Position numbers and translations under genes: made by a program
The notes under the pieces: model-generated
What the model saw: the letters and a program-made list of their open reading frames with translations, nothing else
What the model was told of the DNA's origin: nothing
Database searches by the model: none
Part shown: piece by piece, positions 17,304-51,226 of the stretch
Layout: each line of letters starts with the position of its first letter
Position numbering within the stretch: position 1 is the stretch's first letter
Source: Aureimonas ureilytica DSM 18598 = NBRC 106430
GTDB taxonomy: Bacteria > Pseudomonadota > Alphaproteobacteria > Rhizobiales > Rhizobiaceae
Assembly: GCF_000382705.1 (NCBI RefSeq)
Contig: NZ_ARQE01000006.1
Span: 62,001 to 126,000, forward strand
DNA: 64,000 bases
Direction: 5' to 3'

Positions 17304-17687
17304 TCACTTGTTTGTCAGCCGAAGCGCGTCCTGCAGGGCGCGGCCGATCTGCTCGGCCGTGTAGGGCTTCTGAAGAACGGGATAGACGCGCCACTCGGTG
17401 TCGATGCCGTCGAGCCCGTAGCCGGTCGCGAAGACGATCGGGATGTCGAGACTGCGAAGCCGCTCGGCCACCGGATAGACCTTCACACCGGCGACGTTCA
17501 TGTCGAGAATGGCCGCGTCGATGCCCGGCGCGGCGTCGATCATCGACAGGGCCCGGTCCACCCGCATCGCAAAGCCCGCATTGGTGCAGGCCAGATCGTC
17601 GAGAATGTCCTCGAGCTGCATGGCGACGAGGGATTCGTCCTCGACGGCGAAGACGCGAAGGCCCGCGAGCGAGGTCAGGTCAGACAT
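17304..17687 (-). CDS. Single-domain response regulator (receiver only)
   Basis: A 127-residue CheY-like receiver with no output domain. The acidic pocket E16/D17 (FAVEDESL), phospho-acceptor D62 (AAILDMNVAG) and the conserved Lys in VLQKPYT are all present. The ATG lies inside the last codons of the upstream kinase gene (8-base overlap), so kinase and receiver are coupled. It probably receives phosphate from that kinase and acts as a phosphate sink or diffusible messenger. Confidence 0.9.
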   Translation of the reverse strand: MSDLTSLAGLRVFAVEDESLVAMQLEDILDDLACTNAGFAMRVDRALSMIDAAPGIDAAILDMNVAGVKVYPVAERLRSLDIPIVFATGYGLDGIDTEWRVYPVLQKPYTAEQIGRALQDALRLTNK

Positions 17688-19158: not shown

Positions 19159-19259
19159 CTGGTCTCCCCTTTCCCGCAAAAGGTCCGAGGCGACATTGCC
19201 CCTGGGCGAAGTGTAGAGGGGAAGCCGGCTTTGAAAAGTGGCTTCCCCCGTTCGATCGT

Positions 19260-34633: not shown

Positions 34634-35908
34634 ATGCTGGACCGCACCGCTCCGCCGCTGCTTTCGCTGATTCGCCGACGCCGGCCCGGCTACACGCTGG
34701 AAGCCCCGTTCTACACCAGCCCCGAGATCTTCGCCGCCGATCTGGAGGCGATCTTCGAGCAGACCTGGCTCTTCGTCGGCGTCGAGCCGGATGTACCCGA
34801 GCCGGGCGACGCGATGACGGTGGATATCGGCGCGAACGCGATCCTGATCGTGCGCGACGACGACATGCAGGTCCGCGCCTTCCACAATGTCTGCCGCCAC
34901 CGCGGCGCGCGCCTCGTTCACGACGAGAAGACGACCGTCGGCAATCTCGTCTGCCGCTACCATTCCTGGACCTACGATCTCTCCGGCGCGCTGATTCATG
35001 CCGAGCACATGGGCGAAGGTTTCGACCGCAAGTGCCATGGCTTGAAGCCCGTCCATATCCGTTCGCTCGAAGGCCTGATCTTCATCTGCCTCGCGGACGA
35101 GCCGCCGGCCGATTTCGACGAGATGGCCGCCGCGATGGGTCCCTATCTCGCGCCGCACGACATCCGAAACAGCAAGGTCGCCTACCAGCACGATCTGATC
35201 GAGCCGGGCAACTGGAAGCTGACGATGGAGAACAACCGCGAGTGCTACCATTGCGGGGCGAACCATCCCGAACTGACCGTGCCGCTCTTCGCCTACGGCT
35301 TCGGCTTCGCGCCGGAAGAGCTGGACGAAGCCGAGCGCGCCCAGGCCGAGCGCTACGGCTGCCTCGTCGACAACAGCCATGCCGACTGGGAAAAGGCGGG
35401 CATTCCGAGCCGGATGCTGGAGCATCTGGACGACATGGTGACGGGCTATCGCACTGAGCGCCTGCCGCTCGACGGTGACGGCGAGTCCCACACGATGGAC
35501 ACCAAGGCGGCCTGCCGCATTCCCATGGGCCAGTTTCCGAGCGCCCGGATGGGCGGCCTGCATTTCTGGACCCAGCCCAATTCCTGGCACCATTTCATGG
35601 GCGATCACGCCGTCACCTTCTCGGTGATCCCGATCGACGCCGAGCACTCGCTCCTGCGCACGAAATGGCTGGTCCATAAGGACGCGGTGGAGGGCGTGGA
35701 TTACGACCTCGAAAATCTCATCAGCGTCTGGATGGCCACGAACGCGCAGGATTCCGAGCTCGTCGGCTTCTGCCAGAAGGGCGCGCGCACCGCCGCCTAC
35801 GAGCCCGGCCCCTATTCGCCGCACACCGAGATGCTCGTGGAGAAGTTCTGCAACTGGTATGTCGGGCGAATGCGCGCGCATTTCGACCCGTCCGCCCCGG
35901 AAGGCTGA
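34634..35908 (+). CDS. gbcA: Glycine betaine monooxygenase, Rieske oxygenase subunit
   Basis: A 424-residue Rieske/mononuclear iron oxygenase that demethylates glycine betaine to dimethylglycine with release of formaldehyde. The Rieske ligands are C87/H89 and C107/H110 (CRHRG and CRYHSW). Mononuclear iron ligands include H206 and H211 in NRECYHCGANH. Very similar in layout to GbcA of Pseudomonas and to choline/carnitine-type Rieske enzymes. The gbcB reductase follows after 10 bp. A sox terminator separates it from soxG, so it starts its own operon. Confidence 0.92.
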   Translation: MLDRTAPPLLSLIRRRRPGYTLEAPFYTSPEIFAADLEAIFEQTWLFVGVEPDVPEPGDAMTVDIGANAILIVRDDDMQVRAFHNVCRHRGARLVHDEKTTVGNLVCRYHSWTYDLSGALIHAEHMGEGFDRKCHGLKPVHIRSLEGLIFICLADEPPADFDEMAAAMGPYLAPHDIRNSKVAYQHDLIEPGNWKLTMENNRECYHCGANHPELTVPLFAYGFGFAPEELDEAERAQAERYGCLVDNSHADWEKAGIPSRMLEHLDDMVTGYRTERLPLDGDGESHTMDTKAACRIPMGQFPSARMGGLHFWTQPNSWHHFMGDHAVTFSVIPIDAEHSLLRTKWLVHKDAVEGVDYDLENLISVWMATNAQDSELVGFCQKGARTAAYEPGPYSPHTEMLVEKFCNWYVGRMRAHFDPSAPEG

Positions 35909-35918
35909 GGGCCGCGCC

Positions 35919-37022
35919 ATGGACACGCCCAACGCTCCCCAGCCGACCGGCTTCCACCATTGGGACCCGGAAGAGGACGACGTTCTCGTCTGCCGCGCCG
36001 TGCGCGAGGAAACCGCCGACGTGAAGACCTTCGTCTTCGCGCCGCGCACCCGTCGGCAATTCGTCTTCGATCCCGGCCAGTTCCTGACCTTCGAATTCGA
36101 GATCGACGGCGAGACCATCTATCGCTGCTACACGATCTCCGCCTCGCCGACCCGCCCCGACACCTGCGCCATCACCGTGAAGCGCGTGCCGAACGGCCCG
36201 GTGTCGAACTGGCTGCACGATCATTTCAAGCCGGGCATGAGCCTCAAGGCCACCGGCCCGATGGGCGAGTTCTCCTGGGCGCGCCATGGCTCGGCGACGG
36301 GCAAGTATCTCCTGGTTTCGGGCGGCAGCGGCGTCACGCCGATGATGTCCATGACCCGCTCGGCCTACGATCTGGCGGAAATCCGCAACGTCGTGTTCCT
36401 CCACGCCGCGCGTACGCCGGCCGACATCGTGTTCGAGGACGAACTGGCCGTGATGAGCCGACGCAACCGCTCGATCCGCGTCGCCCATATCTGCGAGGCG
36501 GACGCGCCCGGCCATGGCTGGACCGGCTTTCGCGGCCGCCTTACGCTCGGCATGCTGGAAGCCGCCGCGCCGGATTTCCGCGAGCGCGAGGTCTTCGTCT
36601 GCGGCCCCGTGCCCTTCATGTCGGCGGTGCGCGCGATCCTCAAGGAGGCCGGGCTCGACATGAGCCGGTATCACGAGGAAAGCTTCAACTTCGAGGACCT
36701 GTCGGCCGGCGCGCAGGCCGAGGTGCAGACCGCGACCGACGAGATGGCGCCCGCCGCGCGCACCTTCCGCATCGAATTCGCCAAGACCAAGCGCGTGGTG
36801 GAATGCCCGGAGGACATGCCGATCCTCGAGGCCGCGCGGCGCGCGGGCCTGCGCCTACCCTCCTCCTGCACCAAGGGACTGTGTGGCACCTGCAAGTCCA
36901 AGAAAGTGTCTGGTGACGTCGAGATGAACCACCAGGGCGGCATCCGGCAGCGCGAGATCGACGCCGGCCAGATCCTCATCTGCTGCGCCCAGCCCCGCTC
37001 CGACGTCGTGATCGAGCGGTGA
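35919..37022 (+). CDS. gbcB: Glycine betaine monooxygenase, reductase subunit
   Basis: A 367-residue flavin/ferredoxin reductase that feeds electrons from NAD(P)H to GbcA. An FAD domain (about 25-130, YRCYTISASPTRPDTCAITVKR) and an NAD domain (YLLVSGGSGVTPMMSM) lead to a C-terminal plant-type 2Fe-2S domain with C317, C322, C325 and C355. The ATG at 35919 is chosen over a longer frame that overlaps gbcA. Confidence 0.93.
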   Translation: MDTPNAPQPTGFHHWDPEEDDVLVCRAVREETADVKTFVFAPRTRRQFVFDPGQFLTFEFEIDGETIYRCYTISASPTRPDTCAITVKRVPNGPVSNWLHDHFKPGMSLKATGPMGEFSWARHGSATGKYLLVSGGSGVTPMMSMTRSAYDLAEIRNVVFLHAARTPADIVFEDELAVMSRRNRSIRVAHICEADAPGHGWTGFRGRLTLGMLEAAAPDFREREVFVCGPVPFMSAVRAILKEAGLDMSRYHEESFNFEDLSAGAQAEVQTATDEMAPAARTFRIEFAKTKRVVECPEDMPILEAARRAGLRLPSSCTKGLCGTCKSKKVSGDVEMNHQGGIRQREIDAGQILICCAQPRSDVVIER

Positions 37023-37026
37023 CGCC

Positions 37027-38037
37027 ATGGGCGCCGGCGCACCCCCGCTTGCCAGCCTCACCCGCTTCGGCTTCCTCACCCTTTCCAACTATTCGCTGAT
37101 CGCCGTTTCGGCCGCCATCGAAGCCTGCCGCATGGCGAATTATGTCGCCCGGCGCGACGTCTATTCCTGGCAGGTGCTGACGCTCGACGGCACGCCGGCC
37201 AAGGCCTCGGGCGGGCTCGCCCTCGGGCCGACCGTCCCGCTTGCCGAGGCCGGCCCCCTCGACGCCGTCTTCGTGTGCGGCGGCATCGACGTTCGCCATG
37301 CCGTGGACCGGCGCACGCTGGAGGAGCTGCGTCGCCTCGCCCGGCGCGGGGTGCCGCTCGGCGCGCTCTGCACCGGCAGTTTCGCGCTGGCCGACGCCGG
37401 ACTGCTCGATGGCTATCGCTGCGCCATCCATTGGGAAAATCTCGGCGCGATCCGGGAGGAGTTCGAGAACGTCGATTTCGTCGACGATCTCTTCGTGATC
37501 GACCGCGACCGCTTCACCTGTTCGGGCGGCTCCGCGCCCTTCGACATGATGGGCGCCTTTATCGAGGCCAAGCTCGGGCGGCCCGTCGCCGAGCGCATGT
37601 CCGAACAGTTCGTGCTGGATCGCCTGCGCGGCGGGGCCGAGCCGCAGCACGCGCCGATCCGCTCCAAGGGCCTGCGCCATCCCGCCCTGGAACAGGCCGG
37701 CGCCTTGATGGCCAAGACGATCGGCGCGCCGCTGACGGTCGCGGCCGTCGCCGCGCGGGTCGGCCTGTCGCCGCGCCAGCTGGAACGCCTGTTCCGGCAC
37801 CACACGGGCCTCGGCCCGGCAGAATTTTCGATGGCGCTGCGGCTCGACCATGCACGCGAGCTCCTGCGCCAGTCCGATCTTGCCGTGACGGCGGTCGGCG
37901 TCGCCTCGGGCTTCGTGTCCTCGGCGCATTTCTCGGCCGCCTATCGGCGGCGTTTCGGTCATGCCCCGCGCACCGAGCGCGGCGTCGGCCGCCTGTCTCC
38001 TTCCCCGTCCGTTCCGCTCGCGGAGTCCGTGCCATGA
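37027..38037 (+). CDS. gbdR: GbdR-type AraC-family regulator
   Basis: A 336-residue regulator with an N-terminal DJ-1/PfpI-like (GATase1) ligand domain (about 10-190, GALCTGSFALADAGLL and WENLGAIREEF) and a C-terminal AraC helix-turn-helix pair (about 230-325, LTVAAVAARVGLSPRQLERLFRHHTG). GbdR in Pseudomonas senses glycine betaine and dimethylglycine and activates the catabolic genes. Here the gene sits within the operon: 4 bp after gbcB, and its stop overlaps the dgcA start. Its own expression should therefore rise with the pathway. Confidence 0.88.
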   Translation: MGAGAPPLASLTRFGFLTLSNYSLIAVSAAIEACRMANYVARRDVYSWQVLTLDGTPAKASGGLALGPTVPLAEAGPLDAVFVCGGIDVRHAVDRRTLEELRRLARRGVPLGALCTGSFALADAGLLDGYRCAIHWENLGAIREEFENVDFVDDLFVIDRDRFTCSGGSAPFDMMGAFIEAKLGRPVAERMSEQFVLDRLRGGAEPQHAPIRSKGLRHPALEQAGALMAKTIGAPLTVAAVAARVGLSPRQLERLFRHHTGLGPAEFSMALRLDHARELLRQSDLAVTAVGVASGFVSSAHFSAAYRRRFGHAPRTERGVGRLSPSPSVPLAESVP

Positions 38038-40076
38038 TCGCTCATGCCGAAGCCCTGCTGAAACCCCTGACGATCCGGGGCGTGACCTTCCGAAACCGCG
38101 TCATGTCCACGAGCCATGCGCCGGGCTACGGGCAGGACGGCAAGCCGCAGGAGCGGTACCAGCTTTATCACGAGGAAAAGGCCAAGGGCGGCATCGGCCT
38201 TACCATGTTCGGCGGCTCGTCCTCCGTCGCGATCGACAGTCCGGCCACCCCTTGGGCGCAGATTTCGCTGACCGACGACAGCGTCGTCCCGTATTTCCAG
38301 AGCTTTGCCGACCGCATCCATCGCCACGGCGCGAAGCTGATGATCCAGGTCACGCACATGGGTCGGCGAACGAAGGACAACACCGACAACTGGATGCCGA
38401 CCATCGCGCCCTCGGTGCGGCGGGAGCCGGCCTCCCGCTCCGTTCCCAAGGAAATGGAGAAGGAAGACATCCAGCGCGTCGTGCGCAGCTTCGCCGAAGC
38501 CGCGCGCCGCGCCCGCGAAGGCCGGCTCGACGGCTGCGAGATATCAGCCGCGCATGGCCATCTCGTGGACCAGTTCTGGTCTCCCTCGGTCAACCAGCGG
38601 ACCGACGAATATGGCGGCTCCCTCGAAAACCGGATGCGCTTCGGCATCGAAGTGTTGGAAGCCATGCGCGAGGCGGCCGGGGAGGACTTCCTGATCGGCA
38701 TGCGCATGTCCGGCGACGAGATGGTCGCGGACGGGCTCAGCCAGGAAGATCTCATGACCATCGCAACGGAATATTCCCGGCGCGGGCTCGTGGACTTTCT
38801 CAACGTCATGGGCGGTCAGGCGCGCGACCACATCGCCCATGCCGTGTCGCTGCCGAACATGAGCTTTCCGGTCGCGCCCTTCCTGTTCCTGCCGAGCGCG
38901 GTGAAGCGCGAAGTGGACGTGCCGGTGTTCCACGCCCAGCGCGTGACCGACCTCGCCACCGCCGCGCGCGCCGTTCACGAAGGCCATGTCGACATGGTCG
39001 CCATGACGCGCGCCCATATCGCCGATCCGCATCTCGTGAAGAAGCTGCAGGAAGGCCGCGCCGACGACATCCGCCAATGCGTGGGCGCGGGCTACTGCAT
39101 CGACCGCATCTATGTCGGCGGCGACGCGCTCTGCCTGCAGAACGCGGCGACGGGCCGCGAAGCGAGGATGCCCCATGTCATTCCGAAATCGGACGCGCCG
39201 GGCAAGACCGTCGTCGTCGTCGGCGGCGGTCCGGCCGGGCTGGAAGCGGCGCGCGTTTCGGCCGAGCGCGGCCATCGCGTCGTTCTCTTCGAGAAGCAGG
39301 CGCAGCTCGGCGGCCAGATCAACGTCGCCGCCAAGGGCACGTGGCGCGAGGCGCTGTCGGGCATTCCGCGCTGGCTGCGCTCGCAGGTGACGAAGCTCGG
39401 CGTCGATGTCCGGCTCGGCGCCGAGGCGACAGAGGCCGCAATCCTCGCGGAAAAACCCGATGTGGTGATCGTCGCGACGGGCGGCCTTCCCAATCTCGGC
39501 CATGCCAAGGGCGCGGCGGAACACGTGATCTCGACCTGGGACGTCTTGAACGGCAAGGTCGAGCCGACAGGCTCCATCCTCCTCTACGACGAGCAAGGGC
39601 AGCACAACGCCGCCTCCACCGCCGAGTTCATGGCCAAGCGCGGCTGTCTCGTGGAGATCGCGACGCATGACCGGATGATCGGCGAGGAGATCGGCACCAC
39701 CAACCAGCCGATCCACATTCGCGAACTCTACAAGCTGGGCGTCATGATGACGCCGAACATGGAGCTGATCGAGGTCTATCCCGAAGGCAACCGGCTGGTC
39801 GCCGCGCTGCGCAACACGCATACCGACGCCGAGGAAGAGCGCGTGGTGGACCGGGTCGTGGTGGATTACGGCACGCTGCCGGTGGACGGGCTCTATTTCG
39901 ACCTGAAGGCGCAATCCGCCAATCGCGGGCAGATCGATCAGGACGCCCTCGTCGAAGGTCGGCCGCAGCCCAAGAGTGGCGACGGGTTCCAGCTTTTCCG
40001 GCTCGGCGACGCCGTCGCCGGGCGCAACATCCACGCCGCGCTCTACGACGCCCTTCGTCTCTGCAAGGATCTGTAA
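38034..40076 (+). CDS. dgcA: Dimethylglycine demethylase subunit DgcA-like (FMN/FAD NADH:flavin oxidoreductase)
   Basis: A 680-residue Old Yellow Enzyme-type flavoprotein. An FMN TIM-barrel (about 1-370) carries AAHGHLVDQF with H174 and QRTDEYGGSLENR. Three cysteines, C349, C355 and C367, form a likely iron-sulfur site. The C-terminal half is an FAD/NAD domain starting VVVVGGGPAGLEAAR. The ATGA overlap with gbdR sets the start. It removes a methyl group from dimethylglycine to give sarcosine, passing electrons to DgcB and the ETF (as in Pseudomonas, inferred here). Confidence 0.88.
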   Translation: MIAHAEALLKPLTIRGVTFRNRVMSTSHAPGYGQDGKPQERYQLYHEEKAKGGIGLTMFGGSSSVAIDSPATPWAQISLTDDSVVPYFQSFADRIHRHGAKLMIQVTHMGRRTKDNTDNWMPTIAPSVRREPASRSVPKEMEKEDIQRVVRSFAEAARRAREGRLDGCEISAAHGHLVDQFWSPSVNQRTDEYGGSLENRMRFGIEVLEAMREAAGEDFLIGMRMSGDEMVADGLSQEDLMTIATEYSRRGLVDFLNVMGGQARDHIAHAVSLPNMSFPVAPFLFLPSAVKREVDVPVFHAQRVTDLATAARAVHEGHVDMVAMTRAHIADPHLVKKLQEGRADDIRQCVGAGYCIDRIYVGGDALCLQNAATGREARMPHVIPKSDAPGKTVVVVGGGPAGLEAARVSAERGHRVVLFEKQAQLGGQINVAAKGTWREALSGIPRWLRSQVTKLGVDVRLGAEATEAAILAEKPDVVIVATGGLPNLGHAKGAAEHVISTWDVLNGKVEPTGSILLYDEQGQHNAASTAEFMAKRGCLVEIATHDRMIGEEIGTTNQPIHIRELYKLGVMMTPNMELIEVYPEGNRLVAALRNTHTDAEEERVVDRVVVDYGTLPVDGLYFDLKAQSANRGQIDQDALVEGRPQPKSGDGFQLFRLGDAVAGRNIHAALYDALRLCKDL

Positions 40077-40119
40077 CGATGGGCGGCGCGCTTCGCCCCC
40101 GCAGCCGGAGGAGCCTCGC

Positions 40120-42042
40120 ATGAGCTTCGCTCTTCCGCTTCTCGTTCTCGCGATGATCGCGCTGGCGGCCACCCGTTTCGCGCCCCGCGTGGCGCTCTGG
40201 CGGGCGGGCCGCGCCGCGCCGGTGGATTGGGCGCGAGGCCTCGCCGCCGTGCCGCGTCGCTATCTGGTAGACGTGCACCATGTCGTCGCGCGCGATCCCT
40301 ATGCCGCGCGGATGCATGCGGCGGTGGCGGGCGGTCTGATCGGGGCCACCGCGCTGGCGCTGATCGGTTTCGTGCCGCCGCTCGGTGCGTCCCGCCTCTT
40401 CTGGGGTCTCGTCGCGATCCTGTTTCTGTCGATGCTCGGCGGCGCGCTGGCGGTCGGCGCGCGGCGCGTGCCGCAACGGCCGAAACGCCTGTCGGGCGGC
40501 GCGTTTCAGGTGCTTCCCGTGCTTCTGCTCGCCTATGCGTTCGGCGGAGCACTCGCGGCGGGTTCGCTCGCGCTCGCGCTGCCCTCGGCCGTTTTCGCGC
40601 TCGGTCTGATCATCGCCGCCTTCGGCGGGCTCGGCCTCGCCTGGCAGACCGGGAAGGGGCCGATGCGCCATGCGCTGACGGGCGCCTTGCATCTCGCCGC
40701 CCATCCGCGGTCCGGCCGGTTCGAGGGCCAGCGCGAAACGGCGCTTCGCCCGCTCGATCTCGATGCCCCGAAGCTCGGCGTGGAGGCGCCTGCGGATTTC
40801 TCCTGGAACCGGCTTCTGGGTTTCGACGCCTGCATCCAGTGCGGGCGCTGCGAAGCCGCCTGCCCGGCTTTCGCAGCGGGCCAGCCGCTCAACCCGAAGC
40901 GCCTGATCCAGGATCTCGCCGCGTCCATGACACCGGGCGGCAACCCGTCCTATGCCGGCAGCGACTATCCGCAGGCCCGGCCGGTGGCCGGCGTCAGCGG
41001 GTTCGGTCAGGCCATCATCGGCGCGGACGCGATGGTTCATCCCGACACGCTGTGGAGCTGCACGACCTGCCGCGCCTGCGTCGAGGAATGCCCGATGATG
41101 ATCGAGCATGTCGATGCGATCGTCGATCTCCGGCGGTTCCAGACCTTGGAGCTTGGCGCGGTTCCCGAAAAGGCCGAACTGGTTCTCGCCGACATTCGCG
41201 GCGCGGACGAGCCCGGCGGTGCCCCGCTCGGCGCACGCGCCGACTTCGCGGGCGGCCTCGACGTGCCGCTCATGGCGCGCAAGGGCGAAGCGGACGTGCT
41301 GCTCTGGCTCGGGACCAACGCCTTCGACATGCGCACCGGCCGAACACTCCGGGCGCTGGTGCAGCTTCTCCAGGCGGCGAAGGTCGATTTCGCGGTTCTC
41401 GGCGAGGAAGAGCGCGATTGCGGCGATCTCGCCCGCCGGCTCGGCGACGAAGCGAGCTTCCAGCGGCTGGCGCGGCTGAACGTCGAAACGCTGAAACGCT
41501 ATCGCTTCCAGCGCATCGTCACCGCCGACCCCCATTCCCTTCATGTGCTGCGCAATGAATATCCGGCCTTTGGCGGCCAATTCGACGTCGTCCACCACAC
41601 GGCCTATCTGGACGAGCTGGTGGAAGCCAGGCGCTTGGCCCTCCGCGCGCTCGGGCCGACGCCCGTGACCTATCACGACCCCTGCTATCTCGGACGTTAC
41701 AATGGCGAGTTCGACGCGCCGCGTCGGCTCCTCGACCGGCTCGGCCTGGAACGGCGCGAAATGGAGCGCTCGCGCAAACGCTCCATGTGCTGTGGCGGCG
41801 GGGGCGGCGCGCCGGTGACCGACATCGCGGGCGAACAGCGCATCCCCGACCTTCGCATGGCGCAGGCCAAGGACACGAAAGCCGAACTCGTCGCGGTCGC
41901 CTGCCCGCAATGCACGGCCATGCTGGAAGGCGTCGTGGGCGACAGGCCGGATGTGTTCGACGTCGCGGAACTCGTTCTGCGCGCGCTCGACACCGCGCCC
42001 GCCGACGCCGTGAAGCCGGCCCGGATCGGGGAGCCCGCCTGA
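40120..42042 (+). CDS. dgcB: Dimethylglycine demethylase subunit DgcB-like (iron-sulfur membrane protein)
   Basis: A 640-residue protein. The N-terminal part has about five membrane segments (residues 1-175) and fits DUF3483. Two 4Fe-4S motifs follow: C238/C241/C244/C248 and C314/C317/C320/C324. The C-terminal half has CCG-type motifs (YHDPCYLGRY and MCCGGGGG), as in heterodisulfide reductase-like subunits. GGAGGAG precedes the ATG. It probably moves electrons from DgcA toward the membrane or ETF. Confidence 0.9.
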   Translation: MSFALPLLVLAMIALAATRFAPRVALWRAGRAAPVDWARGLAAVPRRYLVDVHHVVARDPYAARMHAAVAGGLIGATALALIGFVPPLGASRLFWGLVAILFLSMLGGALAVGARRVPQRPKRLSGGAFQVLPVLLLAYAFGGALAAGSLALALPSAVFALGLIIAAFGGLGLAWQTGKGPMRHALTGALHLAAHPRSGRFEGQRETALRPLDLDAPKLGVEAPADFSWNRLLGFDACIQCGRCEAACPAFAAGQPLNPKRLIQDLAASMTPGGNPSYAGSDYPQARPVAGVSGFGQAIIGADAMVHPDTLWSCTTCRACVEECPMMIEHVDAIVDLRRFQTLELGAVPEKAELVLADIRGADEPGGAPLGARADFAGGLDVPLMARKGEADVLLWLGTNAFDMRTGRTLRALVQLLQAAKVDFAVLGEEERDCGDLARRLGDEASFQRLARLNVETLKRYRFQRIVTADPHSLHVLRNEYPAFGGQFDVVHHTAYLDELVEARRLALRALGPTPVTYHDPCYLGRYNGEFDAPRRLLDRLGLERREMERSRKRSMCCGGGGGAPVTDIAGEQRIPDLRMAQAKDTKAELVAVACPQCTAMLEGVVGDRPDVFDVAELVLRALDTAPADAVKPARIGEPA

Positions 42043-43205
42043 TGCGCCCGCGCCGCGACCCACGCACGGAGCGCGCCTCCCATCTCGTCACGCATGGCGA
42101 CGGGCGCCCCCGCTTCGATCTCGCCGTGCGCAGCGGCCGACCCCGGCGCGACCCACGCGGCGAGATGGCGGCGCAGGTGGTTCGGCATCAGCCGCGCCTG
42201 CGCCTCGACCGGCTCCAGCACGGCGCGGCGAGCTCGATCGCGCCCGCCGCATCGTCACCCACCGCAAAGCCGGTTGCGGCGATCGTCGCGGTCCCGGATA
42301 CGGCGCTCCGCGCTCTCGTGATCGCCGATCCCGGCAAGGGCGGGCTCACCGCCCTCGATCGCCAACTCCTCGCCGCCGCGCGACTGGCCGTCGGCAAGGA
42401 AGGCGGCGTCGTTCTCGCCATCGACCGCGCGGTGGAGGACGCGGGCGAAGCGGGGGCGGACCGCGTCGTGCTCCTACCCGACACACTGCATCCGGCGGAT
42501 CGCTTCGACGCCGTCACCACCCTTCACCGCGCCCTCGCATTGCCGCATCTCGTCCTGCCGGAAACAGCCGCTGGTGGCGATCTCGCGCGGCGTCTCGCAG
42601 CGCGGTTCGGCCTGTCCTTCTTTCCCGGCGTCGAGCAGATCGGCGCGCGCGGCATGGTCCGCGCCGTTCGCGGCCGCAAGGTGGACCAGGAGCGCGCCGA
42701 CCTTGCGAGCGTGATCACGCTCATCCCCGACATGGTGCCGCAGCGCGCCGACGCACCGCGCGGAGCCAAGGCGATCGCTCTCGACCTCGCCCCGCCGTCG
42801 CGGCAGGTGGAGCGCGTGAAGCCCGAGCGCGGCTCGCTCTCCCTCATGGACACGGATTTCGTCGTCTCTGCCGGCAACGGCATCCGCGACTTCGACCTGT
42901 TCCGCGCCGTGGCCGCTGCGCTCGGCGGCACGCCGGGCGCGAGCCGCGTCGTCTGCGACAGCGGCGACATGCCCCGCGCGGCGCAGGTCGGCGCATCGGG
43001 AACGGTGCTCGCCGCCGACTGCTATCTGGCGCTCGGCATCGCCGGCGCGCCGCAGCATCTCCAGGGCATCGCCGGTTGCGAGCATGTTCTCGCCGTCAAC
43101 ACCGATCTTCACGCCGCGATGGTGGAACGCGCCGAACTCGCCATCGTCGCGGACGCCCATCCGGTGATGGAAGCCTTGCTTCGGCTCTTGAAGGAGGACG
43201 CATGA
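42042..43205 (+). CDS. Electron transfer flavoprotein alpha-like subunit
   Basis: A 387-residue EtfA-like protein. The N-terminal ~85 residues are Arg-rich and poorly conserved. The ETF core starts near VAAIVAVPD. The C-terminal FAD-binding domain has SAGNGIRDFDLF and VGASGTVLAADCYLALGIAGAPQHL, degenerate relative to housekeeping EtfA (canonical GLKWRLxxGxI region is altered). The start overlaps the dgcB stop by one base (TGATG). It is likely a pathway-specific ETF for dimethylglycine demethylation. Confidence 0.82.
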   Translation: MRPRRDPRTERASHLVTHGDGRPRFDLAVRSGRPRRDPRGEMAAQVVRHQPRLRLDRLQHGAASSIAPAASSPTAKPVAAIVAVPDTALRALVIADPGKGGLTALDRQLLAAARLAVGKEGGVVLAIDRAVEDAGEAGADRVVLLPDTLHPADRFDAVTTLHRALALPHLVLPETAAGGDLARRLAARFGLSFFPGVEQIGARGMVRAVRGRKVDQERADLASVITLIPDMVPQRADAPRGAKAIALDLAPPSRQVERVKPERGSLSLMDTDFVVSAGNGIRDFDLFRAVAAALGGTPGASRVVCDSGDMPRAAQVGASGTVLAADCYLALGIAGAPQHLQGIAGCEHVLAVNTDLHAAMVERAELAIVADAHPVMEALLRLLKEDA

Positions 43206-43972
43206 GGATCGCCGTTCTCCTCTCCGCCAGCCTGCATCCCACGTCCGGGCAGCCGGCTCTGGCACGCACCGAAGCGCAAGCCGTGGCGCTCGCCTTGTCG
43301 CTCGGCGGCGAGGTCGTCGGCTTCCACGCCGGCCCGAGCCTCGAGGCGCCGCGTGCCGCGCTGGGGCACGGTCTGCCGCGTCTTGTTCATCTTCGCGTCC
43401 CCGAAGGCAGCGATCCCGTTCCGGCGCTCGCGGAAGCGCTTGCCGAGTTTCGCCCCGATCTCGTTTTCGCCGGCCCTCGCTCGGTCGGCGGCGACGAAAC
43501 GGGCCTCGTCCCCTATCGCCTCGCCGAAGCCTTGGGCTGGCCGATCCTTGCCGACGTCCTGAACCTTCGCGCCGATGCGGACGGGTTCGACCTCGCCTGC
43601 GCGCTTCCCAAGGGCGAGCGACTTCGCCTGCGCGAAACCAGTCCTCTGGTCGCGACGATCCACCCCGCCGCCCCGCCGCCCCGGCCCTATGCCTTCGCGC
43701 AGGAGCGACGCGGCGCGATCGACGTGCGGGACGGCGTGGCGAGCGAAGCGGCGTCCGAGCGCCCGCAGGAGCGCGCGATGCGCCAGCGCGCCAAGGTCAA
43801 GCCGGGCGCGGCCGGCGGCAGCGCGGCGGATCGGCTTCGCGCCGCGACGGAAAGCGCGAGCGCCAAGGGCGGTCAGCTTCTCGTCGATCCCGACCCGGAA
43901 ACGGCGGCCCGTGCGATTCTCGCTCATCTGCGGGCCATCGGCGCGGTGCCGGGCGGCCGGTCCGCCCTTTAA
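43202..43972 (+). CDS. Electron transfer flavoprotein beta-like subunit
   Basis: A 256-residue EtfB-like protein coupled to the upstream alpha gene (ATGA overlap). The N-terminal half has the AMP-binding-type ETF fold (AQAVALALSLGGEVVGFHAG; DLVFAGPRSVGGDETGLVPYRLAEALG). The C-terminal ~70 residues are Lys/Arg-rich and variable. It pairs with the preceding subunit. The gene ends 10 bp before the convergent betA stop. Confidence 0.8.
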   Translation: MRIAVLLSASLHPTSGQPALARTEAQAVALALSLGGEVVGFHAGPSLEAPRAALGHGLPRLVHLRVPEGSDPVPALAEALAEFRPDLVFAGPRSVGGDETGLVPYRLAEALGWPILADVLNLRADADGFDLACALPKGERLRLRETSPLVATIHPAAPPPRPYAFAQERRGAIDVRDGVASEAASERPQERAMRQRAKVKPGAAGGSAADRLRAATESASAKGGQLLVDPDPETAARAILAHLRAIGAVPGGRSAL

Positions 43973-43982
43973 GCCGAAGCGG

Positions 43983-45653
43983 CTACATCACCCCTTGCGC
44001 GGGCGCCGGCAGGAAGGCGACGCGCTCATAGGGCACGTCGGCGCGCGGCAGCGCCTCGCGCCCGCGAATGATGTCGGCGGCCTTCTCCGCGATCATGATC
44101 GTCGGGGCGTTGAGATTGCCGGTCGTGATCGAGGGCATGATCGAGGAATCCACGACGCGCAGCCGGTCGACGCCGATAACGCGCGTCTGCGGATCGACCA
44201 CCGCGAACGGATCGGCCGCATCCCCCATCCGGCAGGAGCAGGACGGATGATAGGCGCTTTCCACATGCTCGGTGATGAAGGCGTCGATTTCCTCGTCGGT
44301 CTGCACCGCCTCGCCCGGCTGGATCTCGCGTCCGCGATAGCGATCGAAGGCGGGCTGCGAGAAGATCTGCCGCGTCAGCCGCACGCAGGCGCGCATTTCC
44401 GCCCAATCGTCCGGGTGGCTCATATAGTTGAACAGAATGCGCGGCGGCTCAGTCGGGTCGCCCGAGGCCAGCCGCACATGGCCGCGCGATTTCGAGCGCA
44501 TCGGCCCGACATGGGCTTGGAACCCGTGCTCGGAGGCGAGCCCGCGCCCGTCATAGGTCACGGCCAGCGGCAGGAAGTGGTATTGGATGTCGGCATGCTG
44601 GACATCGGGCCGCGAGCGGATGAAGCCGCAGCTCTCGAAATGGTTGGTGGCGCCGAGCCCCTTCTTGGTGAAGAGCCAGCGCGCGCCGATCGCGCCCTTG
44701 GCGAAGGGCGTCATGGCGGAAAACAGCGTGATCGGCAGTTGGCAGGCGACCTGGAAGTAGAATTCCAGATGATCCTGCAGGTTCTCGCCGACGCCCGGCC
44801 TTTCCGCGACGATTTCGATCCCATGGTCCCTAAGTTCGGCCGCCGGACCGATGCCCGACAGTTTCAGGAGCTTGGGCGAATTGATCGAGCCCGCCGACAG
44901 GATGACCTCGCGCCGCGCGAAGGCCTGTCGCTCCTCGCCGCCGACGCGATAGAGAACCCCGGACGCGCTCTTGCCGTCGAACAGAACCCGCTCCACCAGC
45001 GCGTGAATCTCGACCTTGAGATTGGGCCGCCCGAGCGCCGGCTTCAGATAGGCATTGGCGGTGGACCAGCGGCGCCCTTCATGGACGGTCATGTCCATGC
45101 GGCCGAAGCCTTCCTGCGTCGCTCCGTTGATGTCCTGGTTCATGGCGTGACCGGCTTGCCCCGCCGCTTCCACGAAGGCCTCGTAGAGCGGGTTTTCGAG
45201 TGTGCCGTAGGTCGTGTGAAGCGCGCCCTCGTCGCCGCGATAGGGGTCGCCGCCCGTCCGGCGATGTTCGGCCTTGCGGAAATAGGGCAGGACGTCCGGG
45301 TAGCTCCAGCCCGCCGCTCCTTCCCGCTCCCAGCGGTCGAAATCGGCCGGCGCGCCGCGTACATAGACCATGCCGTTGATCGAGGACGATCCGCCCAGAA
45401 CCTTACCGCGCGGGCAATTCAGCCGGCGGCCGCCGAGATGGGGCTCGGGCTCGGACCAATAGCCCCAATTGTACTTCTTCATGTTCATGGGAATCGAAAG
45501 CGCGCTCGGCATCTGGATCAGGAGCGAGCGGTCCGAGCCGCCGAATTCCAGGAGCAGAACCGTGGTCCGGCCATCCTCGGTCAGCCGGTTGGCGAGCACG
45601 CAGCCCGCCGAGCCGGCTCCGACGATCACGTAATCGAAGCTTTCGACCCTCAT
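43983..45653 (-). CDS. betA: Choline dehydrogenase
   Basis: A 556-residue GMC-family FAD oxidoreductase that oxidises choline to betaine aldehyde. The FAD fold [14 protein letters not shown] begins at residue 11. GMC signatures [18 protein letters not shown] and [13 protein letters not shown] follow, and the C-terminal [10 protein letters not shown] and [16 protein letters not shown] are as in BetA. It lies 12 bp downstream of the BetI-BetB fusion gene, so both form one transcript. Confidence 0.95.
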
Positions 45654-45665
45654 CGCCTTCTCCGA

Positions 45666-47771
45666 TCAGTAGGGTGCGTCGACGCGCCCGAGATTGACAT
45701 AGACGCTCTTGGCTTGCGTATGCGCGATGAGCGCCGAGCGGCCGTTCTCGCGCCCGAGGCCCGACTCCTTGGCGCCGCCGAAGGGCAGTTCGATCGGCGT
45801 GATGTTGTAGGTGTTGATCCAGGTCGTGCCGGCTTCGAGCCGCGCCACGACCCGGTGCGCGCGCGCCAGATCGCGGGTGAAGACGCCGGCCGCGAGGCCG
45901 AAGCGCGTGTCGTTGGCGCGCGCGATCACCTCGTCCTCGTCGCGGAACGACAAGACGGTCATGACCGGACCGAAGATTTCCTCGCGCACGATGCGCATGG
46001 AATCCGCGCAGCCGTCGAAGATCGCGGGCCGCACGAAGAAGCCCTTGCCGAGACCGTTCGACGTCACCCGCTCGCCGCCGGCCAGAAGAAGCGCGCCTTC
46101 GCGCTGGCCCTCCTCGATATAGGACAGGACCTTCAGCATATGCGCTTCGGAGATCAACGCGCCGACCTGCGTGGCGGGATCGCAGGGGTCCCCGACGACC
46201 ATGGCGCGGGTGCGCGCGGCGAGCTTGTCCAGAAAGGCGGCGCGGACATCGTCGTGGACGAAGACGCGCGTTCCGTTGGAGCAGACCTCGCCCGCCGAGT
46301 AGAAATTGGCGAGCATCGCCCCGCCGACCGCGTCGTCGAGATCGGCATCGGCGAAGACGATCAGCGGCGACTTGCCGCCGAGTTCCAGCGTCACCTGCTT
46401 CAGCGTCGCGCTCGCATCCGCCATCACCTTCTTGCCGGTGCCGACCTCGCCGGTCAGCGAAATCTTGGCGATGCCCGGATGGCGCGACAGAAGCCGCCCG
46501 GTTCGCCCATCCCCCTGCACGACGTTGAAGACGCCCGCCGGCACGCCGCATTCGGTCATGATCTCGGCGAGTTTCAGGGCGGTCAGCGGGGTGAGTTCGG
46601 CCGGCTTGAAGATGACGCTGTTGCCGGCGGCCAAGGCGGGCGCGGCCTTCCAGCAGGCGATCTGAAGCGGATAGTTCCAGGCGCCGATGCCGGCGACGAC
46701 GCCGAGCGGCTCGCGCCGGACATAGCCGAAGGCGTTCGGCCCGAGATCGACATGCTCTCCGGCGAGGCCGGCGGCGAGCCCCGCGAAATATTCGATGCAA
46801 TCGGCGCCGGACAGAACGTCCACGGCTTCGGTTTCCTGGATGGGCTTGCCGGTGTCGCGCGTTTCCAGAAGCGCCAGCTCGCCATTGCGCTCGCGCAGAC
46901 GCGCGGCGACGCGGTTGAGGATGCGGCCGCGCTCGGCGCCCGTCTTCGCACCCCATTCGCGCTGCGCCTCGCGGGCCAGGGCCACCGCGCGATCGACCTC
47001 CGCCTCGCCGGCGATGGCGATCTCCGCGAGGATTTCCGACGTCGCGGGATTGATGGTGGTGAAGGTTTCGGCGGCGGGATCGAGGGCGGAATAATCTCCG
47101 CCGACATGGCTGGTCAGGACCCGCGTACCGTCCAACCGGCGCGGCTTGGGCTTGGCGGCGTCGCGCGGGCGGGCCGAGGCGATCTGCGAGTCGGCAAAGG
47201 CGGTCGCGATCGAACGCGCGGACAGACTGTCGGTCTCGCCGACATCCGACAGCGTCGAGCGCAGCCAGAGCCCGTCGATCACGGCGGCGATCGCGACGGC
47301 GATGCGCTTGGCGTCCTCGTCGCTGCACAGCGCCTTCAGATCGAAGCGCAGGTTGGACAACATGCGCCGCTGATAAACGCGCTGAACGCGCTTCAGGCGC
47401 GGCGAATGGAGGACCTGCCCCCAGAAGGCGAGCCAGACGGAGCAGGTCCGGGCGTCGAACTCCTCGGGGGCGAGATTGGCGTCGATGACGGCCTGAATGC
47501 GCTCGCGAGACCCTTCGGCGCGCGCCAGGCGCAGCCGGGCGCTGTCGGACACACGGCTCGCCAGATGGCGAAGCGTGGCTTCCAGCAGGCCTTCCTTGTC
47601 CCCGAAATAATGCGCCACCAGCGACGGCGCGACGCCGGCCCGGCCCGCGATCTCCGACAGGCTGGAAGCCGCGAAGCCGACATCCGCGAGGGCGTCGATC
47701 GTCGCCTCCACCAATTGGCGACGGCGCTGGTCTTCGGTCCCGAATCGGGTCACTGTCTCTGTGCGAGCCAT
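45666..47771 (-). CDS. BetI-BetB fusion: TetR-type choline repressor joined to betaine aldehyde dehydrogenase
   Basis: One uninterrupted 701-codon frame encodes two proteins that are normally separate. Residues about 10-195 are a complete BetI: TetR helix-turn-helix at 36-60 ([23 protein letters not shown]) given here in parts as [10 protein letters not shown] and [12 protein letters not shown], and the ligand domain with [11 protein letters not shown] and [12 protein letters not shown]. Residues 196-217 are an Arg/Lys/Pro-rich linker. Residues about 218-701 are a full-length aldehyde dehydrogenase with [19 protein letters not shown], the catalytic E463 (TLELGGKSP) and C497 ([10 protein letters not shown]). 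GAGGTGGAG precedes the ATG. No internal ATG with an SD lies at the junction; TTG at codon 213 is the only weak internal start. It should bind DNA and make glycine betaine (inference). Confidence 0.88.
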
Positions 47772-47794: not shown

Positions 47795-47823
47795 CCGATA
47801 GCAAAAATTGATCGTTCATTCAA
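47795..47823 (-). promoter_or_regulatory. Candidate promoter of betIB-betA
   Basis: On the minus strand TTGAAT (-35, 47823-47818) and TATCGG (-10, 47800-47795) are separated by exactly 17 bp, with the transcript start expected about 20 bases before the ribosome site. Operator 1 overlaps the -35 box and spacer, so binding there should block transcription. Confidence 0.45.
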
Positions 47824-47825
47824 TC
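47806..47825. promoter_or_regulatory. Candidate BetI operator 1
   Basis: ATTGA (47807-47811), 8 bases, TCAAT (47820-47824), a TetR-type inverted repeat 35-54 bases upstream of the fusion gene start. It shares its half-sites and spacing with the second site 153 bp away. Confidence 0.55.
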
Positions 47826-47958: not shown

Positions 47959-47978
47959 AATTGAACGGATGTTCAATT
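47959..47978. promoter_or_regulatory. Candidate BetI operator 2
   Basis: AATTGAACGGATGTTCAATT is a perfect inverted repeat with 8-bp arms around GGAT, the best of the three sites. A TTGACA follows at 47985-47990, on the choX side. Confidence 0.65.
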
Positions 47979-48028: not shown

Positions 48029-48048
48029 GATTGTTCGACCGATCAACG
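48029..48048. promoter_or_regulatory. Candidate BetI operator 3 (weaker)
   Basis: ATTGT (48030-48034), 8 bases, TCAAC (48043-48047): same spacing, one change in each half-site, so it stays symmetrical. It lies 61-80 bases upstream of the choX start, where it could block elongation or promoter clearance. Confidence 0.4.
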
Positions 48049-48108: not shown

Positions 48109-49059
48109 ATGATGATGTCCCGCCCTATGACAAAGGCTTGCCTCGCCCTCGCCTTCGTCGCCTGCGCGCTGCCGGCAAACGCGGCCGATCCGGCCTCGTG
48201 CCGGGCGGTGCGCTTCGCGGATGTCGGATGGACGGACATCACGGCGACCACCGCGTCCGTTTCCACAATTCTCTCGGCGCTCGGCTATCAGCCGAAAACC
48301 GACATTCTCGCCCTGCCCGTCACCTTCGCCTCGCTGAAGAACGGCGATATTGATGTCTTCCTCGGCAACTGGATGCCGACGATGGAAGCCGATCTCGCCC
48401 CCTACAAGAAAGAGGGCTCGATCGAGACGATCCGCGTCAATCTCGAAGGCGCCAAATACACGCTCGCGGTTCCGACCTATCTCTACGACCAGGGCCTCAA
48501 GAGCTTTGCCGATATCGCCAAGTTCCAGGATCAGCTCGACGGCAAGATCTACGGGATCGAGCCGGGCAATGACGGAAACCGGCTGATCCTCAAGATGATC
48601 GAGGAGAACAAGTTCGGCCTCGGCAAGTTCGAGCTCGTGGAATCCTCCGAGCAGGGCATGCTGGCACAGGTGGCGCGCCAGACGCGCGGCGACAAGCCGA
48701 TCGTCTTCCTCGGCTGGGAGCCCCATCCGATGAACGCCAATTTCAAGCTCTCCTACCTGTCGGGCGGCGACGACGTGTTCGGGCCGAACTATGGCGGCGC
48801 GACGATCTACACGCTGGCGCGCAAGGGCTTGAGCGAGGAATGCCCCAATCTCGGTCAGTTCCTGAAGAATGTCGTCTTCTCGCTGCCGATGGAAAACGAG
48901 ATCATGGGCGCCATCCTCAACGACGGGAAGACGCCGGACGCCGCCGCCAAGGATTGGCTCTCCAAGCATCCCGATAGCTGGAAGCCGTGGCTGCAGAACG
49001 TCATGAGCTTCGACGGCAAGCCCGGGCTCGAAGCCGTGAGCGCCGCTCTCGCGGACTGA
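48109..49059 (+). CDS. choX: Choline ABC transporter substrate-binding protein
   Basis: A 316-residue periplasmic binding protein of the OpuAC/ChoX family. A signal peptide covers about residues 1-25 (CALPANA, cleaved near ADPA). The mature protein has VRFADVGWTDITATTA, DVFLGNWMPTMEADL, GIEPGNDGNRL and FLGWEPHPMN, segments that in ChoX supply aromatic residues to the quaternary-ammonium cage. TAGGAG precedes the ATG. Three successive ATG codons leave the exact start open by two residues. First gene of choXWV. Confidence 0.93.
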   Translation: MMMSRPMTKACLALAFVACALPANAADPASCRAVRFADVGWTDITATTASVSTILSALGYQPKTDILALPVTFASLKNGDIDVFLGNWMPTMEADLAPYKKEGSIETIRVNLEGAKYTLAVPTYLYDQGLKSFADIAKFQDQLDGKIYGIEPGNDGNRLILKMIEENKFGLGKFELVESSEQGMLAQVARQTRGDKPIVFLGWEPHPMNANFKLSYLSGGDDVFGPNYGGATIYTLARKGLSEECPNLGQFLKNVVFSLPMENEIMGAILNDGKTPDAAAKDWLSKHPDSWKPWLQNVMSFDGKPGLEAVSAALAD

Positions 49060-49077
49060 ACCATCCGCATTCGCATG

Positions 49078-49100
49078 CGGCGCTCCCGCCGGGAGCGCCG
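49078..49100 (+). repeat. Strong stem-loop between choX and choW
   Basis: A perfect 10-bp stem CGGCGCTCCC / GGGAGCGCCG with a GCC loop. No T-tract follows. Such structures after a binding-protein gene often stabilise its mRNA part or limit readthrough, so that the binding protein exceeds the permease. Confidence 0.6.
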
Positions 49101-49166
49101 GCCATCTCGACCCGCATTCGCGGGCGCGGTCTGGCGCCCGAACCCCACTCGCAAGGATCGTCCGGA

Positions 49167-50021
49167 ATGCTCGACTGGATCGCCGATCACAAGATTCCGC
49201 TGGGGCTCTGGCTCCGCGATTTCGTGAACCAGTTGACCACGCACGGGCAGAATGTCTTCGACACGATCTCGCTGGTCCTCGGCTCGCTGATCGACGGGCT
49301 GACCAGCCTCCTGTCGGCCGTGCCGCCGCTCGTCTTCATCCTGCTCGTCGCGGGCGGCGCCTGGCTTCTCCACCGGTCGCTGGCACTGGCCGGCTTCGCC
49401 ATCCTGTCGCTGCTTCTGATCGTCAATCTCGGCTATTGGACGGAAACGATCCAGACACTGTCGCTCGTGTTCTGCGCGACGCTCGTCTGCGTGGTCATCG
49501 GCGTGCCGCTCGGCATCGCCGCCGCCCATCGCCCCTGGGTCTACACGGCGCTGCGGCCCTTTCTCGACCTGATGCAGACGATCCCGACCTTCGTCTATCT
49601 GATCCCGACCCTCGTTCTCTTCGGCCTCGGTGCCGTGCCGGGGCTCATCTCCACCGTGATCTTCGCCGTTCCCGCGCCGATCCGGCTCACCTATCTCGGC
49701 ATCTCGGCCGTGCCCTTGAGCCTTCGCGAGGCGGCCAGCGCCTTCGGCGCGACCAAGCGCCAGCTCCTGTTCAAGGTCGAACTGCCGCACGCGCTGCCGA
49801 CGATCATGGCCGGCGTCACGCAATGCATCATGCTGAGCCTCTCCATGGTCGTGATCGCCGCGCTCGTGGGCGCGGACGGCCTCGGCAAGCCCGTGGTGCG
49901 CGCGTTGAACACGGTCAATATCGGCATGGGCTTCGAAGCGGGCCTCGCCATCGTCATTCTCGCCATCCTGCTCGACCGCATCTGCAAGGCGCCCGAGCCG
50001 CGCCGCGCGAAAGGACGCTGA
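49167..50021 (+). CDS. choW: Choline ABC transporter permease
   Basis: A 284-residue inner-membrane permease of the ProW/ChoW type. About six or seven hydrophobic segments are present, with the conserved cytoplasmic loop EAASAFGATKRQLLFKVELPHALPTIMAG near residues 190-218 that contacts the ATPase. ATG 49167 is preceded by CAAGGA. ChoV follows two bases after the stop. Confidence 0.93.
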   Translation: MLDWIADHKIPLGLWLRDFVNQLTTHGQNVFDTISLVLGSLIDGLTSLLSAVPPLVFILLVAGGAWLLHRSLALAGFAILSLLLIVNLGYWTETIQTLSLVFCATLVCVVIGVPLGIAAAHRPWVYTALRPFLDLMQTIPTFVYLIPTLVLFGLGAVPGLISTVIFAVPAPIRLTYLGISAVPLSLREAASAFGATKRQLLFKVELPHALPTIMAGVTQCIMLSLSMVVIAALVGADGLGKPVVRALNTVNIGMGFEAGLAIVILAILLDRICKAPEPRRAKGR

Positions 50022-50023
50022 CC

Positions 50024-51226
50024 ATGACCGCCGATGAGCGTCCCGCGATCGAATTCCGCAATGTCGATATCGTCTTCGGCGACAAGCAGGCCGAGGCCCT
50101 TCGGCTGATCGATGCCGGAAAGACGCGCGACGAAATCCTGAAGGCGACGGACTCGGTTCTCGGCGCGGCGGGCGTCAACCTGTCGGTGCGTCGCGGCGAG
50201 ATCTGCGTGCTCATGGGTCTGTCGGGCTCGGGCAAGTCCACCATTCTGCGCGCCGTGAACCGGCTGAACGAGGTGGCGAGAGGCGAAGTCCACGTCCTTC
50301 ACCGTGACCGGCCGGTGGATGTCGCGCGCTGCGACGAGCGTGTGCTGAGGGACATCCGCACCCACACCGTCTCCATGGTGTTCCAGCAATTCGCCCTCCT
50401 GCCCTGGCGCACCGTCCGTCAGAACGCAGGGCTCGGGCTGGAGCTTCAAGGCCTGTCAGTCAGCGAGCGCAACCGCATCGTGGACGAGAAGCTCGCGATG
50501 GTCGGCCTCACCAAATGGGCGGACAAATACGCCCACGAACTCTCAGGCGGCATGCAGCAGCGCGTCGGTCTCGCGCGCGCCTTCGCCACCGACGCCGACA
50601 TCCTTCTCATGGACGAGCCCTTCTCGGCGCTCGATCCGCTGATCCGTGCCAAGCTTCAGGACGAGCTTCTCGAACTGCAGCAGTCGATCCGCAAGACCAT
50701 CCTTTTCGTCAGCCACGATCTGGACGAGGCGATGAAGCTCGGCAACCGGATCGCGATCATGCAGGACGGACGGATCGTTCAGGCGGGCCAGCCGGAGGAC
50801 ATTCTCCTCTCGCCCGCGACGCCTTACGTCGCCGAGTTCGTGCGGCACATGAACCCGCTGAACGTCCTTCGAGGCTCCGCCGTCATGCGGCCGGTGCGCG
50901 CCATCAAGCGCGAAGCCGGCGCGCTGCTTCTCGACGAGGCCGGCGGCGTGCGGCTTGAGGTCGACGCGTCGGATCGTCCCGTCAGCGTTCACATCGAAGG
51001 CCATGGCGGAACGCTCGGCCATGCCGATGGCGACGAGGGACAGGTCGATCACCCCTGCGACGTCATCGTCGCGCCGGTCGATCTGAAGCTGCGCGCGGCG
51101 ATCGCGCTGAAGCGCCAGACCAACCACCCGATCCTCCTCGTGGACGATCTCGGCCGCCTCGCCGGCCTGTGCGACGACGAGGAAATCTATCGCGGCCTTC
51201 TCCAGCGCTCGGAGCCGCGCGCCTGA
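50024..51226 (+). CDS. choV: Choline ABC transporter ATP-binding protein
   Basis: A 400-residue ATPase. Walker A GLSGSGKST is at 65-73, the signature LSGGMQQRVGLARA and Walker B ILLMDEPFSALD follow. The C-terminal ~110 residues contain a CBS-like regulatory part ending DDEEIYRGLLQR, as in ProV-type proteins. It powers ChoXW. It is convergent with the DUF2218 gene, 7 bp away. Confidence 0.93.
   Translation: MTADERPAIEFRNVDIVFGDKQAEALRLIDAGKTRDEILKATDSVLGAAGVNLSVRRGEICVLMGLSGSGKSTILRAVNRLNEVARGEVHVLHRDRPVDVARCDERVLRDIRTHTVSMVFQQFALLPWRTVRQNAGLGLELQGLSVSERNRIVDEKLAMVGLTKWADKYAHELSGGMQQRVGLARAFATDADILLMDEPFSALDPLIRAKLQDELLELQQSIRKTILFVSHDLDEAMKLGNRIAIMQDGRIVQAGQPEDILLSPATPYVAEFVRHMNPLNVLRGSAVMRPVRAIKREAGALLLDEAGGVRLEVDASDRPVSVHIEGHGGTLGHADGDEGQVDHPCDVIVAPVDLKLRAAIALKRQTNHPILLVDDLGRLAGLCDDEEIYRGLLQRSEPRA

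Follow-up and report, generated by a model that had tools for sequence, protein, structure and literature searches.

Does a single gene of Aureimonas ureilytica encode both the repressor BetI and the betaine-aldehyde dehydrogenase BetB, and, if so, do the two halves work together in one chain? BetI is a choline-responsive TetR-family repressor in E. coli, S. meliloti, and Ruegeria pomeroyi (BetI1), as described in PMC12442346. An initial annotation of the window (the whole 64,000-nucleotide stretch analyzed) had placed both proteins in one frame, at 45666 to 47771. The coordinates and the count of 701 codons without a stop were correct; the strand, which had been left unstated, is minus, with the ATG at 47771 and the stop codon ending at 45666. 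A profile search of the plus-strand reading of the same interval gave no family match. In the minus-strand protein, Pfam identified a TetR-type DNA-binding domain (TetR_N, residues 20 to 65, 47577 to 47714; 44.2 bits, cutoff 24) and a BetI-type effector/dimer domain (TetR_C_6, residues 89 to 197, 47181 to 47507; 98 bits, cutoff 27). These are followed by a variable linker (residues 198 to 224, 47100 to 47180) and by an aldehyde dehydrogenase (ALDH) domain (Aldedh, residues 233 to 690, 45702 to 47075; 572.5 bits, cutoff 23). All four features lie on the minus strand. With NCBIfam, the fusion protein scored 761.2 bits for the betaine-aldehyde dehydrogenase family NF009725, above the cutoff of 593, and 664.5 bits for TIGR01804, about 4 bits below the cutoff of 668.6. 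The best 25 of 57 NCBIfam families were all enzymes, and a BetI model could rank below those.

The claim that both domains are intact and that the dehydrogenase carries catalytic residues E463 and C497 was borne out: the Pfam scores exceed their cutoffs, and N366, K389, E463, and C497 are invariant in an alignment of fusions with 49 rows. An AF2 model of the single fusion chain (mean pLDDT, 85.8; pTM, 0.68) predicts TetR-like helices, then a low-confidence linker (pLDDT of <50 at residues 206 to 214), and then an ALDH fold; as a model of one chain, it carries no information on assembly. When this model was used for a fold search, all 50 PDB matches listed were ALDHs, with bacterial betaine-aldehyde dehydrogenases (BADHs) on top, and the ALDH part was 52 to 60% identical to the solved bacterial BADHs among the matches listed. 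Like BetB proteins of solved structure (6wsa, 2wme, 3r31, and 8skf), the fusion has the whole catalytic domain with the catalytic Glu and Cys; it differs from them in having a repressor at its N terminus. We conclude that the frame in the window joins a complete BetI-type TetR repressor to a betaine-aldehyde dehydrogenase.

Within the genus, 20 of 21 genomes, that of the window included, carry the unbroken frame, and the other copies are 72 to 91% identical to the copy in the window. This rules out a sequencing error or a missed stop codon, the concern that the initial annotation had raised for the junction. The sole genome of the genus without the fusion (G018) carries only an unfused BetB, which clusters in a BetB-only tree with sequences from other classes of the phylum, a position that hints at replacement via horizontal transfer. 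The genome that contains the window (5.09 Mb in 44 contigs) has a single copy of the fusion. Its next ALDH is 45% identical to that of the fusion, and it has one match to a profile of unfused BetIs.

The same architecture, which we were advised to seek in related genomes, is no rarity. In a genome collection queried with fused BetIs, the best 80 of 400 BetI matches all ran in frame into an ALDH (80/80). Within these best 80 matches, 77 are fusions by our HMM rule, two (L123 and L132) enter a degenerate ALDH, and one (L167) reaches the end of its contig just inside the ALDH. In three of the 77 (L125, L159, and L162), the ALDH is cut or shortened. The hosts of the fusions among the best 80 of 400 matches are Alphaproteobacteria and metagenome-assembled genomes (MAGs) labeled Gammaproteobacteria. 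The fusion occurs in Aureimonas, Ancylobacter, Kaistia, Methylobrevis, Azorhizobium, and Acidisoma, and in MAGs labeled Caulobacterales, Steroidobacteraceae, and others. In Komagataeibacter saccharivorans it is plasmid borne and annotated as betB. Sampling of genomes with the fused profile, own genome included, gave at least 3 fused genomes of 385 at the class level, at least 14 of 397 at the order level, and at least 3 of 398 at the phylum level, where the other two repeat earlier ones. The census gives lower bounds, with at most two candidates scored per genome, and live fusions in G1038 and G1051, two genomes that the phylum-level sample probably contained without listing them, emerged only later. 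Two further long frames, L030 (901 codons) and L036 (704 codons), proved to be BetB with an unrelated upstream reading and were left out of the counts. In L125, from a Parvibaculaceae MAG, the fused frame of 414 codons stops inside the ALDH though the locus continues.

We built trees from BetI plus BetB and from BetB alone. In the BetI-plus-BetB tree (82 rows, 54 of them fused; a quick search), the fused rows form one clade with an SH-aLRT value of 92, and a single change is needed; the BetB-only tree (76 rows, 36 fused) needs three. Several independent fusions would suit the BetB-only tree, but the BetI-plus-BetB tree asks for only one change, and one old fusion event is favored, not proved. 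The placement of the Komagataeibacter fusion (L039), which has a long branch, is unsure, and two fusions found later (L244 and L245) were not part of the rows of either tree. The sister group of the fusions in the BetI-plus-BetB tree consists of three unfused loci (L077 to L079). Such pairs have the gene order betI-betB in common with the fusion and differ in being two genes, which in L077 (genome G626) overlap as ATGA in different frames. The fusion could plausibly have begun from an overlap of this type.

A continuous frame could nevertheless yield two proteins. If translation began anew within the linker, or if the chain were cleaved, free BetB would arise and the fusion would exist at the transcript level only. 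This reading draws on the ATGA overlap in L077 of the unfused sister group and on five fusions (L072, L099, L136, L147, and L160) whose linkers contain an SD-like sequence and an ATG near the expected betB start, which may be a relic of the fusion event and might serve as an internal start. The window copy argues otherwise: an SD-like sequence precedes the ATG of the fusion, and close to the junction the sole in-frame candidate start is a TTG that lacks an SD. An ATG lies between the domains in 2 of the 20 genus copies, both times without an SD, and one of the 20 has an alternative start with an SD; no internal start is conserved. We also surveyed the linkers of 113 fusions, in records drawn from different collections and partly duplicated. 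No start was found in 22, only GTG or TTG in 43, an ATG without an SD in 33, an ATG with an SD in 7, and GTG or TTG with an SD in 8. These start counts point to a single chain in Aureimonas, and an additional free BetB is conceivable in a minority of relatives. We consider the production of two separate proteins unlikely and a single chain in Aureimonas most likely, as the initial annotation had proposed; judging from the 7 of 113 linkers with an ATG and an SD-like sequence, some relatives may make free BetB besides the fusion.

The surroundings of the fusion fit a role in choline metabolism. Twelve base pairs downstream lies betA, encoding choline dehydrogenase (43983 to 45653, minus strand; NF002550, 882.3 bits, and TIGR01810, 828.1 bits, both above cutoff). 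Upstream, a 337-bp gap separates the fusion from divergent choXWV genes on the plus strand: choX, for a choline ABC transporter binding protein (48109 to 49059; TIGR03414, 463.6 bits, cutoff 379); a choW-containing frame, for the permease (48987 to 50021; TIGR03416, 412.6 bits, cutoff 363); and a choV-containing frame, for the ATPase (49436 to 51226, match at residues 205 to 590; TIGR03415, 534.6 bits, cutoff 483.75). Past betA, at 35859 to 43972, NCBIfam matches, all below their cutoffs, mark frames resembling glycine betaine monooxygenase reductase, GbdR, and both ETF subunits, and Pfam marks a DUF3483/iron-sulfur protein frame. From these matches, the locus looks like a catabolic island leading from choline to betaine and onward. 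A scan of the 337-bp gap found no sigma-70-type promoter or terminator.

The gap does contain candidate operators. When 112 upstream regions were searched by EM, the palindrome tATTGAATGATCATTCAATa emerged, and the BetI1 box of Ruegeria pomeroyi is ATTGACG-CGTCAAT (PMC12442346). By this comparison, the two have the half-site ATTGA/TCAAT in common, and the fusion, like BetI, has palindromic boxes predicted upstream of its own operon. Two BetI-box-like sites with the core TTGA-N8-TCAA were found by both motif and pattern search, at 47806 to 47825 (35 to 54 bp upstream of the fusion ATG) and at 47959 to 47978. A third, weaker site with one core mismatch, at 48029 to 48048 (61 to 80 bp upstream of the choX start), was found by motif search. 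In a held-out test, we trained the motif on the 20 Aureimonas copies alone and applied it to 65 loci from outside the genus. In all 65, the best site of the whole locus lay no more than 350 bp upstream of the fusion (chance, ~0.046 per locus; the loci are not independent). A search of the 5.09-Mb genome with a pattern allowing one mismatch, for which the third site is too weak, returned two sites, both between the fusion and choXWV; the reversed control returned none. A coding-body control for the motif search proved worthless because the coding regions are homologous. The proposal that the protein binds its own operator is thus in keeping with three putative BetI-box-like sites in the gap and with a one-mismatch pattern confined to it in this genome.

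We next consider selection on the two halves. Over 190 genus pairs, pN/pS was 0.175 for the helix-turn-helix (HTH) region (residues 13 to 65), 0.344 for the BetI C-terminal domain (residues 66 to 197), 0.759 for the linker, and 0.294 for BetB. Both domains of the fusion are under purifying selection, and the linker evolves far more freely. The linker had been described as basic, which is true of the window copy; this feature is not conserved, since the spacing between the TetR_C_6 and Aldedh models ranges from 9 to 40 residues (median, 23) in the 113 fusions and the linker letters vary.

Relatives that have lost the enzyme bear on the repressor half. Seven genomes of three lineages (L123, L132, and L239 to L243) retain the BetI part and keep an open frame through an ALDH from which the catalytic Cys, Asn, and Lys are gone. 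The BetI part is 63% identical to that of the window in L123 (Kaistia adipata, 3468 to 5459) and 58% identical in L132 (a MAG). Operator-like sites persist in six of these seven genomes, L123 and L132 among them; none was found upstream of L242. The genus g333, of the same order, offers seven genomes, five with BetI and a dead ALDH and two with BetI alone (L247 in G528 and L248 in G685). In the latter two, the ALDH part is gone and paired operator-like sites are kept. Six of the seven g333 genomes, with L242 again the exception, have operator-like sites upstream; recomputing the sites of L239 to L248 with model-based gene starts gave identical sites at distances ~30 bp shorter. Six of the seven also have another BetB, 58 to 60% identical to that of the window. 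In g333, pN/pS was 0.22 for BetI and 0.54 for the dead ALDH, which may retain a structural role. BetI is thus maintained even with the ALDH inactivated or lost; among the indirect evidence, this speaks most strongly for a repressor half that probably functions in the fused state.

Taken together, the most probable reading (about 0.78 by our estimate) is that the single chain would act both as a choline-responsive autorepressor (BetI) and as BetB, which catalyzes the second step of the pathway. When choline is absent, the TetR domains at the N termini would pair and occupy the BetI boxes between the fusion and choXWV, and the bound boxes would hold down the fusion-betA operon and probably the divergent choline importer as well. 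Choline imported via ChoXWV would bind the BetI domain and release the boxes. The betaine aldehyde made by BetA would be oxidized by the ALDH half of the fusion chain to glycine betaine, which protects against salt stress. The initial annotation had already proposed this product, and the family assignment and the intact active site lead us to expect it. With each enzyme molecule also a repressor molecule, the amounts of the two would be locked together, and repression would be back when choline drops. Several points count against this reading: the TIGR01804 score just short of its cutoff, the 7 of 113 fusions with an ATG and an SD-like sequence in the linker, the genus member G018 that does without the fusion, the dead-ALDH genome L242 with no operator-like site, and the scan of the gap that found no sigma-70-type promoter. 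From the sequence we infer the full-length product, its binding to DNA, choline as its ligand, its enzyme activity, and the feedback; choline sensing by the fusion is predicted from family membership.

The closest known plan is that of PutA. According to PMC9132996, PutA combines a DNA-binding repressor part with a pathway enzyme on a single chain and controls the genes of that pathway. The enzyme part of PutA is thought to alter DNA binding. The comparison with PutA made at the outset holds for layout, a repressor and a pathway dehydrogenase in one chain, but not for the parts, which are unrelated: Pfam finds only TetR_N, TetR_C_6, and Aldedh in the fusion and no proline dehydrogenase. The DNA-binding domain of PutA is a ribbon-helix-helix, whereas that of the fusion is of the TetR type, and the fusion retains a separate effector domain. 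In sequence, neither half is unusual for a BetI or a BetB, and it is their union that sets them apart. The likeness in layout (as described for PutA in PMC9132996) and the short linker that tethers the domains would suit a switch on which the ALDH half also acts, such that NAD(P)+ or betaine aldehyde, once bound to it, alters DNA binding as proposed for PutA. We think this quite unlikely: the complete effector domain of BetI makes a second sensor unneeded, the linker varies freely, and the dead-ALDH genomes keep BetI. Finally, that the BetI half is a passenger without regulation and the gene merely a betB with a long N terminus, as the annotation of one fusion protein as betB only might suggest, is highly improbable given the HTH pN/pS of 0.175, the conserved operator-like sites, and, in g333, the lower pN/pS of BetI (0.22) than of the dead ALDH (0.54) and the two of seven genomes with BetI alone.

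If the single chain works as an autorepressor and enzyme, it would be a separate, TetR-based invention of the PutA plan, in which a pathway enzyme is its own repressor. In line with the initial claim of novelty, we found no published description of a BetI-BetB fusion in the open-license literature, though such sequences can be found publicly, one of them under the plain annotation betB; a description in a subscription journal could have escaped this search. Since the fusion is widespread, an annotation of betB only can hide a regulator. Separate genes, live fusion, dead-enzyme fusion, and repressor alone form a natural series that could reveal the value of locking a repressor to the level of an enzyme.

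The candidate operators differ in geometry between fused and unfused loci. The motif of unfused BetIs is TTGATTGAACGTTCAATCAA, which can be read as a pair of TTGA-N8-TCAA sites that overlap, shifted by 4 bp; by analogy with other TetR repressors, two dimers would occupy this form. Upstream of fused BetIs, we found mostly single TTGA-N8-TCAA sites. With a motif trained on fused loci, two or more boxes were present at 78 of 89 fused and 3 of 29 unfused loci (L167 counted there as unfused). With a motif trained on unfused loci, at a threshold of 14, this excess was gone or reversed (9/90 fused versus 15/73 unfused; four other thresholds were similar), and any site at all was found in only 45 of 90 fused loci. 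The excess vanishes because that matrix models the overlapping 20-mer. Hence, we recounted with the plain core TTGA-N8-TCAA, allowing at most one mismatch within 450 bp upstream and using no trained matrix; this recount followed sight of both matrix counts and was not blind. An overlapping pair was present at 11 of 90 fused and 46 of 73 unfused loci (Fisher P = 9e-12, which ignores relatedness, the fused loci being essentially one clade). Multiple clusters (two or more) spaced by 25 bp or more were present at 75 of 90 fused and 10 of 73 unfused loci; at loci with divergent choX, separated clusters were found in 64 of 74 and 6 of 33, respectively. L123 and L132, whose ALDHs are dead, and L167, at a contig end, are counted among the 90 fused loci. 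Mean numbers of sites per locus were alike (2.20 and 1.94 for fused, 1.97 and 1.73 for unfused). With no mismatch allowed, the contrast was weaker (two or more separated clusters, 25/90 versus 0/73; overlapping pair, 2/90 versus 11/73). Thus, besides its joining to BetB, the fusion differs from unfused BetI in having mostly separated rather than often overlapping sites.

BADH enzymes are dimers of dimers. For this reason, a fused tetramer could present two BetI dimers at once, bridge two operators, and loop the betIB-choXWV control region, which would lead to separated sites at fused loci and an overlapping double site at unfused ones. We regard such bridging as doubtful. Site spacings showed no helical phasing (R = 0.07), the unfused sister clade likewise lacks the overlapping pair, the BetI-only loci L247 and L248 have split sites ~140 bp apart, and the fusion L244 has one site only; each of these counts against it. 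The second site may just serve the divergent promoter, and the same geometry would be expected if the operator had been split and weakened to suit an enzyme-repressor that is abundant.

Elsewhere in the 64 kb, the next-best BetI-box-like site is at 19125 to 19144. It scored 16.6 bits, and 40 simulated windows peaked at 17.2. The site lies near the 5' end of a minus-strand frame at 17680 to 19365, which reads like a putative PAS/histidine kinase.
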